Origin: Rhodospirillaceae bacterium bin65
GTDB lineage: Bacteria > Pseudomonadota > Alphaproteobacteria > Bin65
Length of the DNA: 64,000 nucleotides
Assembly (NCBI GenBank): GCA_002238725.1
Contig: MPMX01000013.1
Span: 1-64,000, forward strand
Direction: 5' to 3'
The notes beneath the pieces are model-generated. The model had not been told where the DNA came from and ran no database searches. It saw only the letters and a list, made by a program, of their open reading frames with translations. Below are positions 3,435 to 34,898 of the stretch, piece after piece (the first letter of the stretch is position 1; each line of letters starts with the position of its first letter). The position numbers and the translations under genes were made by a program.

Positions 3435-3474
3435 TCAAATCTCCGTCGTAGCACCCGACAACGATACCGTCCCG

Positions 3475-3650
3475 GTTGCGAGGCAGGTTTCCTGGCTCAC
3501 GGCTTGCAGCCACTCGCGCTCGCCTTCCCGGAACTTCGCCAGTGGCTTCCGAGCGCGGCCAACCGTCTACAGTTGCGGGGACAGCTCCGGACTTGATCTG
3601 CCGATCGCACCGGATTCCCTATTAAGCCCCTCCCCTTCCGGTTCGGGGCG
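3475..3650 (-). ncRNA. Cobalamin (AdoCbl) riboswitch
   Basis: Read on the minus strand, the region shows the cobalamin riboswitch core in order: TTAATAGGGAA (plus 3615-3625), CCGGTG, the GCTGTCCCCGCAACTGTA block, GCCACTG, GGGAAGGCG, and the B12-box AGCCAGGAAACCTGCC (plus 3482-3497). Spacing and order match the class I consensus closely. The cbtB ribosome site lies about 40 nt after the B12-box, so control may be at translation or by premature termination. Ligand binding should shut off cbtBA. Exact ends are approximate. Confidence 0.95.
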
Positions 3651-3917
3651 CCAAGCCCGCTAGCATTAGCCCCATGATTCGAACGCCGTCAAGCATCCGT
3701 TCCGGATGCGGACGCCAAGGCCGGCAACCGGCGCCGACGGCCGGCCCTCAACAGTTCTTGACGGGTTCCGGGGCCGCAATTAGGGTCAATTCTTTTTTCT
3801 CCGGGCATCCGCCGCTGCGGCGCCCGGGTGTCCGGCGGGTGTCCGGCCGCGAAAACCGGGCGAAACGCGCCGGTTCGGCATCGGAATTGGGGAGCAGCAT
3901 GAACCAAGGGAATCCCG

Positions 3918-31714: not shown

Positions 31715-32290
31715 ATGCCCCGGCCCTTTCGCTATCTCTCTGCCCTGCTTTTTTCCCTGTTTTTGAGCGGTCTGGCCGGATGGTCGCCTGCGGCCGCGGC
31801 GCAATGGTCGGTCGGCGACTGGACCGGGAATTCCTATGTCAACCGCGAAGGCGGCTTCAGCCACTGCATCATGTCGGCAAAGTACAACAGCGGCATCACT
31901 CTCTATTTCCTGCTCTTTCGCAATCACGATCTGTTCATCGGCGTGTCCGCACCGGACTGGTCCCTCAGTCCGCACAGTCCCTACACGATGACATTGGCGA
32001 TCGACGGCAAGGTTATCCATTCGGCCCCGGGCACGGTGCTTCGGTACGATACGAAACGGCTGTGGCTGGCGCTGGGCAAGGACGCAGAGAAACGGAAACG
32101 ACTGCGCCGCGGGCTGAAGCTTCGCTTGTTGCAAGGCAAGCGCGATTACGGTTTCCAGCTCACCGGGACAGACCGTTCCCTGAAACGGCTCGAGCAATGC
32201 GTACGGCAGGGCAATGAATCGAAGCCGCAAGAACAACCGGCGAATCCGTCGGCGCCGCCTGAGCCGGCGCCGAAGCCGCAATCGGGGTAG
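31715..32290 (+). CDS. Secreted conserved protein of unknown function
   Basis: A 191-residue exported protein. A clear Sec signal (basic start, hydrophobic core YLSALLFSLFLSGLAG, cleavage near AAAA-Q29) precedes a compact mature domain with two cysteines (SHCIMSAKY and LEQCVRQG) likely to be disulfide-bonded. The QWSVGDWTGNSYV start and the FQLTGTDRSLKRLEQCV ending recall IalB-like periplasmic proteins of alphaproteobacteria, but the match is only by eye. A proline-rich tail ends the protein. The ATG is preferred because it gives the signal peptide; upstream open frame is non-coding. It stands alone ahead of the trp leader. Confidence 0.7.
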   Translation: MPRPFRYLSALLFSLFLSGLAGWSPAAAAQWSVGDWTGNSYVNREGGFSHCIMSAKYNSGITLYFLLFRNHDLFIGVSAPDWSLSPHSPYTMTLAIDGKVIHSAPGTVLRYDTKRLWLALGKDAEKRKRLRRGLKLRLLQGKRDYGFQLTGTDRSLKRLEQCVRQGNESKPQEQPANPSAPPEPAPKPQSG

Positions 32291-32446
32291 AGAGCGTCCG
32301 CTTCCGGCGCCCGGCGGCACGGTAGGCATGTGCGGTAACAAGCAATGCAAGGCGATCCCGGCGCTTCGTGGCCACGCAAACCAGGCGGTCGTAACGCTCG
32401 GCCTATGGGCCCCATCACATTTTATCGGCACAAACGCTACGAGCGG

Positions 32447-32475
32447 TTGACCGCACCGCCGGAACGCTGTAGACG
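32447..32475 (+). promoter_or_regulatory. trp leader promoter
   Basis: TTGACC (32447-32452) and TAGACG (32470-32475) are separated by exactly 17 bp. Transcription would start about 7-9 bp later, at 32482-32484, essentially on the A of the leader peptide ATG. That would make the leader mRNA leaderless, as is known for the Sinorhizobium meliloti trpE(G) transcript. No other promoter between 32291 and 32447 looks better. Confidence 0.6.
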
Positions 32476-32483
32476 CCGCGCCC

Positions 32484-32549
32484 ATGACAGGAATCTGCAC
32501 ATCGGGCCAGTGGTGGCGGTGCGCCGGAACGGCGGCTGCTTCGGGTTGA
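32484..32549 (+). CDS. trpL: trp leader peptide with tandem Trp codons
   Basis: A 21-residue reading frame, start MTGICTSGQWWR, ending in TGA at 32547-32549. Codons 10 and 11 are consecutive TGG TGG (32511-32516). It has no ribosome-binding site, which fits translation from a leaderless transcript beginning at its ATG. It lies just upstream of an intrinsic terminator and trpE(G), so it acts as the tryptophan sensor: ribosomes stall on the Trp codons when charged tRNA-Trp is scarce. In S. meliloti the equivalent peptide and the attenuated RNA also act in trans. Confidence 0.88.
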   Translation: MTGICTSGQWWRCAGTAAASG

Positions 32550-32606
32550 TCGTGCCTCACATTTGAACCCGCACCAGGGCCGCCCCGGATGGAGAGCGGC
32601 CTTTTT
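32522..32606 (+). promoter_or_regulatory. trp attenuator: protector, antiterminator and terminator
   Basis: Three mutually exclusive pairings can be drawn. The protector hairpin is CGCCG-GAA-CGGCG (32522-32534), right after the Trp codons. The antiterminator pairs GGCGGC (32531-32536) with GCCGCC (32579-32584). The terminator pairs GGCCGC (32578-32583) with GCGGCC (32596-32601), followed by TTTTT (32602-32606). A ribosome stalled on 32511-32516 would cover the protector's left arm, freeing GGCGGC to form the antiterminator and allowing readthrough into trpE(G). This is textbook transcription attenuation. Confidence 0.88.
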
Positions 32607-32654
32607 CGATCCTGCGGTTCTCTTCCCGGCTCCCTTTCGCTCCAGGAAGAGACC

Positions 32655-34898
32655 ATGCTTGCAATCGAATACCGAAATTCACCCGTTTCCGCCGGCGGCC
32701 GGCCACCGGTCGAATTTTCGCCGGACGGCCCGATCCCCGGAATATCCATCGCGCGGACGACCGCCGAAGTCGATGGCGCGGCCGCGATCGCCGACCTGAT
32801 CGACCGCCTCGACGAAAGCCGTGGCGGCGTTTTCACCAGCGGCTTTGAGTATCCGGGGCGCTACTCGCGCTGGGACACGGGCTTCGTCGACCCGCCCATT
32901 GGCATTACGGTAGAGCGCAACCGGATCCGCGCCGATGCCTTGAACGCGCGCGGCGCTGTCCTCGTTCCGGTGATGCACCGGGCTCTTGAGAACGCCGATT
33001 GCCTGGACGTCGATTTCGTTTCCGACACCGCGGTCGCGGCCAGTCCGCAACCGGCCGGCGGCGCCTTCTTCGAAGAGGAACGGAGCAAACAATCCAGCGT
33101 TTTCGCGGCTTTGCGGGAAATTCTCGCAGCGTTCCGCACCGACAGGGACAGCCATCTGGGCCTCTATGGCGCGTTCGGCTACGACCTCGCCTTCGCCTTC
33201 GATCCGATCCGGTTCAAATTGGAGCGGCCGGCGAAACAGCGCGATCTGGTGCTCTACCTGCCCGACGAATTGTTTGTCGTCGACCGCCGCGCCGGGACCG
33301 CCCATCGCCTCCGTTACGATTTCGGTTTCGACGGCGCGAGCACGCACGGCCTGCCGCGCGACGGCGCAGCTATGGCTTATCGGCCGGACCGTATCGGCGG
33401 GAACCGGACGGATCGCCGTCCGGGCGAGTATGCGGGCCTGGTGCGCAAGGCGCAAAGGGAGTTCCGCAAGGGCAATCTGTTCGAAGCCGTTCCCGGCATG
33501 CTGCAATCCAGGCCCGCGCCTGAGCCGCCTTCCGCAATCTTTCGCCGGCTGTGCGAGACCAATCCCTCGCCCTACGGCTTTTTCCTCAACCTGGGCGGCG
33601 GCGAATATCTGGTCGGCGCTTCGCCGGAAATGTTCGTGCGGGTCACCGGCGACCGGGTCGAGACCTGTCCGATTTCCGGCACCATACGGCGCGGCGCAAC
33701 GCCGATGGAGGATCACGCGCAGATTCGACGGCTGATCAATTCCGCCAAGGACGAAGCCGAACTGACGATGTGCACCGATGTCGATCGCAACGACAAGTCC
33801 CGCATCTGCGTGCCGGGCAGCGTCAGGGTGATCGGACGGCGGCAGATCGAGATATATTCGCGGCTGATCCATACCGTCGATCATGTCGAGGGCACGCTGC
33901 GCCCGGGTTTCGATGGGCTGGACGCATTTCTCTCCCATATGTGGGCGGTTACGGTTACCGGAGCACCCAAGCTTGCGGCCATGCAATTCATCGAGGACAA
34001 CGAGAAATCGCCTCGTCGCTGGTATGGCGGCGCTGTCGGCGCCTTCGGCTTCAACGGCAACGTCAACACGGGCCTCACCCTCCGGACGATCCGCATTGCC
34101 GGCGGCCGGGCCGAAATCCGCGCCGGCGCCACGCTGTTGCACGATTCAGTCCCCGAAGAGGAAGAGGCGGAGATTCATCTGAAGGCCTCGGCCCTGGTTA
34201 CGGCGATTTCCGGCGAGGAGCCGGCAGCGCCGGTCGCGTTGCGGGCGGCCGCCGTCGCATTGCCGGGCGTGGGCATGACGGTCGCCATGATCGACCACCG
34301 GGATTCCTTTGTGCACACGATCGCCGACTATTTCCGGCAGACCGGCGCCCGTGTCGCAACGCTGCGCACCCATGCCGGAACCGGCTTCGCCGACGGGGCA
34401 GCCCTGCGCGATCTCGACCCCGATCTGGTCGTCATGTCGCCGGGACCCGGAACGCCGGCGGATTTCAGGGCCGCGGACACGCTGGCCCTGCTCGGCGATA
34501 TGAAGGTGCCCGTGTTCGGCGTCTGCCTCGGACTCCAGGCGATTGTCGAATTCTGCGGCGGCCGCCTGAGCCTGTTGCCGGAACCGTACCACGGTAAGGC
34601 TTCCGGCATCCGGTGCAGCGGTACAGGCCTGTTCGAAGGCCTGCCCCGGCACCTGACCCTCGGGCGCTACCACTCGCTGCATGCCCGCACCGACGCCACG
34701 CCTGCAGAACTGGCGATCACGGCGGAAGCCGACGGCGTGGTCATGGCGATCGAACACCGCTACCGGCCGTGGCGCGCCGTCCAGTTCCATCCGGAATCGA
34801 TCCTGAGCATGGATGGAGAAGCCGGACTCGCCATTATCCGGAATGCGGTAAGGCTTGCCCGTCGGGCGCAATCGGAAGAGCCGGTCAAGGCGGCCTGA
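32655..34898 (+). CDS. trpE(G): Fused anthranilate synthase TrpE(G)
   Basis: A 747-residue fusion of both anthranilate synthase parts, converting chorismate and glutamine to anthranilate. The TrpE portion (about 1-520) includes GRYSRWDTGF near the feedback site, GAFGYDLAF, SPEMFVRV and the catalytic core (TCPISGTIRRGATPMED, DVDRNDKSRIC). The TrpG amidotransferase follows at about 540-730, with nucleophile C624 in FGVCLGLQ and the HPES motif. ATG at 32655 has AGGAAGAG ahead; an in-frame ATG at 32589 lies inside the terminator stem and is rejected. The fusion is typical of Rhizobiales and Rhodospirillales. Control is by attenuation upstream. Confidence 0.96.
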   Translation: MLAIEYRNSPVSAGGRPPVEFSPDGPIPGISIARTTAEVDGAAAIADLIDRLDESRGGVFTSGFEYPGRYSRWDTGFVDPPIGITVERNRIRADALNARGAVLVPVMHRALENADCLDVDFVSDTAVAASPQPAGGAFFEEERSKQSSVFAALREILAAFRTDRDSHLGLYGAFGYDLAFAFDPIRFKLERPAKQRDLVLYLPDELFVVDRRAGTAHRLRYDFGFDGASTHGLPRDGAAMAYRPDRIGGNRTDRRPGEYAGLVRKAQREFRKGNLFEAVPGMLQSRPAPEPPSAIFRRLCETNPSPYGFFLNLGGGEYLVGASPEMFVRVTGDRVETCPISGTIRRGATPMEDHAQIRRLINSAKDEAELTMCTDVDRNDKSRICVPGSVRVIGRRQIEIYSRLIHTVDHVEGTLRPGFDGLDAFLSHMWAVTVTGAPKLAAMQFIEDNEKSPRRWYGGAVGAFGFNGNVNTGLTLRTIRIAGGRAEIRAGATLLHDSVPEEEEAEIHLKASALVTAISGEEPAAPVALRAAAVALPGVGMTVAMIDHRDSFVHTIADYFRQTGARVATLRTHAGTGFADGAALRDLDPDLVVMSPGPGTPADFRAADTLALLGDMKVPVFGVCLGLQAIVEFCGGRLSLLPEPYHGKASGIRCSGTGLFEGLPRHLTLGRYHSLHARTDATPAELAITAEADGVVMAIEHRYRPWRAVQFHPESILSMDGEAGLAIIRNAVRLARRAQSEEPVKAA

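Follow-up and report, generated by a model that had tools for sequence, protein, structure and literature searches.

In the trp attenuator of Escherichia coli, tandem Trp codons in a short open reading frame (ORF) are combined with two mutually exclusive RNA pairings, 2:3 and 3:4, and both features recur at the locus described here. Unlike this locus, E. coli trpL has a 5' untranslated region (UTR) with a Shine-Dalgarno (SD) sequence, its stop codon follows shortly past WWRTS, and segment 2 begins near or after that stop codon. For actinobacteria, the trp attenuator of Streptomyces venezuelae is a literature example.

In Sinorhizobium meliloti, the fused anthranilate synthase gene trpE(G) is preceded by a leaderless trpL with tandem Trp codons, whose RNA was published as beginning with the ATG (PMC7298713; PMC10117765). 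The locus includes a terminator with a U-run and an antiterminator arm, GGCGGCC, that follows the final Trp codon by about 10 nt (PMC7298713). The RNA and its peptide, rnTrpL and peTrpL, were reported to destabilise trpDC mRNA and to exert antibiotic-dependent control of efflux genes. A leaderless trpL1 before trpE was also reported in Streptomyces lividans from RNA-seq (PMC8079986). Leaderless ribosome-mediated trp attenuation is a known kind of switch, and the view taken in a first-pass annotation, that the present locus would be an informative second case outside Rhizobiales, is anticipated by S. lividans trpL1.

Here, we analysed the leader of trpE(G) in a 64,000-nt stretch of contig MPMX01000013.1 from the sponge-associated Rhodospirillaceae bacterium bin65, referred to as the window. 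A ribosome-mediated transcription attenuator acting on a leaderless transcript is very probably the best explanation of this leader. It resembles S. meliloti trpLE(G) in the fused gene, the tandem Trp codons, the terminator with U-run, and a -35 element at -37 from the ATG. The peptides differ in layout: that of S. meliloti has 14 residues with the stop two codons past WWW, whereas that of the window has 21 residues and continues for 10 codons past WW, so that the antiterminator arm is coding, unlike in S. meliloti.

Leader elements upstream of trpE(G)

The elements assigned to the leader and to the start of trpE(G) are as follows.

32447-32452, forward strand: -35 hexamer TTGACC, read from the sequence; each of the five congeneric species has TTGAC at -36/-37 relative to the ATG
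32470-32475, forward strand: -10 hexamer TAGACG (TATCCG in L003), a weak consensus match after a 17-nt spacer
32482-32484, forward strand: predicted start of transcription, most probably at the A of the ATG, as judged by the conserved promoter spacing and the S. meliloti calibration
32484-32549, forward strand: leader ORF of 21 codons, MTGICTSGQWWRCAGTAAASG, with stop TGA at 32547-32549; 21 residues without indels in all five species
32511-32516, forward strand: tandem Trp codons TGGTGG, putative stall site, read from the sequence and kept in congeners
32531-32537, forward strand: segment 2, antiterminator 5' arm GGCGGCT within the leader ORF, separated from the last Trp codon by 14 nt in each of the five species
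32578-32584, forward strand: segment 3, GGCCGCC, partner of segment 2 or 4, from sequence and folding
32576-32603, forward strand: terminator hairpin 3:4, with segment 4 (GCGGCC) at 32596-32601; one loop base varies in five species
32602-32606, forward strand: U-run, predicted from the sequence as the 3' end of an attenuated RNA of about 123 nt
32619-32626, forward strand: anti-SD arm TCTCTTCC (UCUCUUCC), invariant in five species and complementary to the trpE(G) SD
32645-32652, forward strand: trpE(G) SD GGAAGAGA, predicted to be sequestered by 32619-32626 in a helix of 8-11 bp
32655-34898, forward strand: trpE(G), encoding a fused anthranilate synthase (TIGR01815 clade 3 in NCBIfam, 999 bits versus a cut-off of 739)

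The leader ATG lies 8 nt 3' of the -10 hexamer, and the predicted start is preceded by pyrimidines. Translation of trpE(G) is assigned to the conserved ATG at 32655, just downstream of GGAAGAGA, and not to 32589, where the mechanically listed long ORF begins within the terminator. Simple promoter and terminator scans returned no matches at the window leader, the weak -10 element being missed by the scan, and the predicted fold was no more stable than shuffles (z 0.10). Considering this weakness of single-sequence statistics, the support for the attenuator is comparative. An Rfam search detected no RNA family at the window leader. Elsewhere in the window, a cobalamin riboswitch aptamer (RF00174, 102 bits) is located at 3465-3670 on the minus strand.

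Conservation and predicted pairing of the leader stems

A trpE(G) of this kind was found in five of the seven genomes of the genus. All five species bearing it, that of the window and four closely related congeners, retain the promoter along with the 21-codon ORF, segment 2, and the terminator, and their leader peptides share a QWWR or RWWR core, placing tandem Trp codons before the trp gene throughout. In the congener comparison, identity across the core promoter was 0.93/0.66/0.79, versus 0.68/0.24/0.37 in the DNA just upstream. The stems hardly vary within the genus, so that no compensatory changes were visible there.

In all five species, segment 3 is predicted to take part in two mutually exclusive pairings. 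When a ribosome occupied the Trp codons before segment 4 had been made, 2:3 formed with a probability of 0.96-1.0; when it stood at the stop codon instead, 3:4 reached 1.0. Without a ribosome, 1:2 (0.76-1.0) and 3:4 were predicted together. At equilibrium, 3:4 prevailed over 2:3 even when the Trp codons were occupied by a ribosome, and the model therefore needs co-transcriptional folding and the order of synthesis, as do classical attenuators.

Across 23 leaders, complementarity of segments 2 and 3 scored 15.4, versus 5.9, and at most 9.5, when the segment-2 regions were shuffled. A covariation permutation, with five terminator arms set by hand and 7-nt helices dropped because many leaders have just 6 pairs, did not significantly favor own over swapped segment 2/3 pairs (p 0.19), since most lineages share GGCGGC:GCCGCC. 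A paired change, GGCGGT:ACCGCC, occurs in L044 and L052, and L034 carries a G-U variant, GCGGCC:GGCTGC. It had been proposed that protector, antiterminator, and terminator stems can all be drawn. The latter two recur in the congeners; a protector can be drawn in each of the five species, but its base pairs differ between them, and we rejected it as a conserved element.

According to the attenuation model, RNA polymerase would start on the leader AUG or no more than 2 nt from it, and a ribosome would load at the 5' end. With charged tRNA-Trp scarce, this ribosome would stall on the two UGG codons and leave segment 2 free, allowing 2:3 to pair before segment 4 is made and polymerase to continue into trpE(G). 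With ample tryptophan, it would pass through segment 2 inside the ORF and halt 9 nt beyond; segment 2 would be covered, 3:4 would form, and transcription would end near 32606.

An extended leader ORF

In each of the five species, the stop codon lies 30 nt beyond the last Trp codon, compared with 3-12 nt in 33 other leaders (L040, discussed below, counted by its peptide). The antiterminator arm consequently falls within the ORF: it encodes the residues AAA or AAV, and the stop lies 9 nt further on. The distance of 14 nt between the last Trp codon and the arm falls in the range of 8-15 nt that is typical of other leaders. The actinobacterial leaders in our data set stop two or three codons past WW, most of them directly after WWRR or WWRRP. 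The S. lividans trpL1 peptide, MFAHSTRNWWWTAHPAAH, has a 7-residue tail (PMC8079986), so that the genus of the window is not alone in having a longer tail, and judging from the peptide, S. lividans trpL1 may also carry the arm inside its ORF. No tandem-Trp leader was found before the plasmid-borne trpE(G) copies of Streptomyces and Embleya (L133-L135 and L138). Location of the arm inside the reading frame provides a natural test of stop codon position, as a terminating ribosome would cover the arm directly.

Transcription start and alternative modes of control

To place the promoter in a wider context, TrpE(G) loci were gathered from 77 relatives, 385 genomes of the class, named genome contigs, and two further orders. 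Among 20 distinct, nonredundant non-actinobacterial tandem-Trp leaders, 12 have at least a five-of-six match to TTGACA at -36 to -38 from the ATG, where shuffling gave a mean of 0.17 and a maximum of 3. The S. meliloti trpL locus, used for calibration, has its -35 element, TTGCGC, at -37, as in the window. Because the geometry is conserved and the S. meliloti element is likewise at -37, the window transcript would begin at the leader ATG or within 2 nt of it. This agrees with the earlier placement of the start on the leader ATG, and the window leader combines this geometry with the lack of any SD-like run before its ATG. Leaderless promoter geometry is conserved among the tandem-Trp trpE(G) attenuators of many lineages and is not a rhizobial peculiarity.

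A start further upstream, giving the RNA a real 5' UTR and a leader ORF that is conventionally translated or not translated at all, is very unlikely. The -10 element agrees with the consensus at three of six positions, and a codirectional ORF terminating at 32290 could read through; against this, conservation falls off 5' of the -35 element, the distance from -35 to ATG is fixed in many lineages, and a conventionally placed SD is missing. Activity in trans of the RNA, the peptide, or both is improbable. The first-pass annotation had suggested that a small RNA ending at 32606 and the 21-residue peptide may act in trans, like rnTrpL and peTrpL in Sinorhizobium. As a leaderless small mRNA, the attenuated RNA of about 123 nt would resemble S. 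meliloti rnTrpL in layout, and cross-talk would be useful considering that trpD is located apart from trpE(G), in the order trpA-D-C-F (trpA, trpC, and trpF assigned from translations, trpD by TIGR01245). By raw duplex energy, the best windows of trpADCF ranked in the top 1% of controls, and accessible pairing sites in the trpADCF of the window's genome matched the strongest controls. However, the accessibility-corrected scan of trpADCF yielded no site conserved across the five species, the region of the small RNA used differed between them, and regulation of trpADCF in trans was set aside on this ground. Outside WWR, most changes in the leader peptide are nonsynonymous; between the window and L003, for instance, the peptide differs by 18 nonsynonymous and 2 synonymous changes, and no amino-acid-level constraint beyond WWR was found in the five species. 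Lack of peptide conservation is not fatal to trans action, since rhizobial peTrpL peptides are likewise not conserved (PMC7298713). The S. meliloti trpL locus matches the RNA family RcsR1 (RF02552) at E 5.7e-20, whereas positions 32300-32800 of the window gave no match at E<=5. Trans activity, published for S. meliloti, is unsupported in the window.

Control of trpE(G) might alternatively be mainly translational, with the hairpin 32619-32626:32645-32652 hiding the ribosome-binding site and the Trp ORF being secondary. We consider this reading unlikely, as it leaves the tandem Trp codons, the antiterminator arm, and the terminator unexplained, and no partner was found that would open the stem. 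The hairpin itself has several points in its favor: the anti-SD arm is invariant in the five species while its surroundings vary, the SD is paired at 0.92-1.0 in folds, and the helix, of 8 bp in the window and L002, 9 bp in L003, and 11 bp in L004 and L005, exceeds shuffled sequences at a per-sequence p of 0.0015-0.024. Its loop tolerates changes in length, being longer in L004 and L005. The minimum-energy z-scores are modest (-0.55 to -2.3), and the five species are closely related; similar helices were predicted in Pleomorphomonas (p 0.0005-0.005). The terminator loop, GGAWGGAGAG, was considered as an opener of the SD stem through the anti-SD arm and rejected, its pairing having a probability of 0.0 in all folds. 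It is possible that the predicted SD-hiding stem adds a translational layer to attenuation. Tandem 10-nt repeats, CCCTTTCACT, enlarge the predicted SD-hairpin loop in L004 (1440-1500) and L005 (1460-1500), with more copies in L004.

Probable lateral origin of trpE(G) and its leader

The TrpE(G) tree places the genus as the sister of actinobacterial sequences (support 96), inside a half composed mostly of tandem-Trp loci, and L014 and L016 from its own family are placed in the other half (support 100). Constraining the genus to group with L014 and L016 was rejected with a p-AU of 2e-35, an optimistic value because the group was named after the tree had been seen. Grouping with actinobacterial homologs instead of its own family makes lateral transfer likely. 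These nearest relatives (Streptosporangiaceae and others) have trpE(G) attenuators that mostly share the QWWR core. Joint lateral acquisition of the gene with its attenuator by the genus is probable and offers the simplest interpretation. A TrpE(G) with the leader MLRRWWRPLT was observed in L040, from a contig of a metagenome-assembled genome titled Chloroflexi; it is placed among alphaproteobacterial and actinobacterial sequences, due to either a binning error or lateral transfer.

Four genomes of the same genus or family (G004, G006, G008, and G009) were found to be without TrpE(G) or another strong TrpE match. They contain trpD and a distant TrpB relative, and the absence of TrpE may reflect either assembly gaps or loss of anthranilate synthase. 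TrpB matches in the genus and family of the window, such as G000:C6:44277-45317, score about 150 bits versus the TIGR00263 cut-off of 392, which suggests that a TrpB2-type protein may replace standard TrpB in the whole family.

Single-Trp leader peptides in sister lineages

A leader peptide with a single Trp precedes many of the trpE(G) genes that lack a tandem-Trp leader. In one order and part of another, this peptide ends in HPPKF(I/V)(A/S)FLW or a close variant, Trp being the last sense codon. Such leaders were found about 80-250 nt upstream of trpE(G) in L091, L092, L106-L111, L113-L115, and L118, with further members in L088, L119, L012, L112, L116, and L013; variants occur at the edges. 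Among the 385 genomes of the class, the pattern PKFxxFLW-TGA occurred in three, at a distance of 110-185 nt upstream of trpE(G) in every case. Over 12 sequences, pN/pS was 0.27 for the last ten codons versus 1.7 for the first ten; by this substitution pattern, the HPPKFxxFLW-stop type is under selection at the amino acid level. Most of the first twelve of these leaders have TAGCGT 9 nt before the ATG, a leaderless-like arrangement.

Stalling at the Trp codon and termination would place the ribosome at positions differing by just 3 nt, so that attenuation by ribosome position is not an easy explanation for these leaders. We found no description of this peptide in the open-access papers searched. 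Judged by its conserved end, it could be an apparently undescribed nascent peptide responsive to tryptophan, and the comparison places this second, single-Trp type with its conserved motif before the same gene. It is tempting, if speculative, to propose that alphaproteobacterial trpE(G) genes draw on at least two exchangeable leader devices, the tandem-Trp leaderless attenuator and the single-Trp HPPKFxxFLW-stop nascent peptide. The same tentative proposal would regard the window attenuator as a form whose antiterminator arm has shifted into the reading frame and which probably entered the genus along with the gene. If true, the HPPKFxxFLW-stop device would respond to tryptophan through its nascent peptide and not through tandem codons.

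L014 and L016, from the window's own family, as well as L069 and L008, have short leader ORFs in which a lone Trp codon lies at the stop or close to it. Their endings are ...TTRW*, ...ALRW*, ...GRWRRC*, and ...RRWRDARD*, and, unlike the window leader, they have an SD-like run before the start codon.
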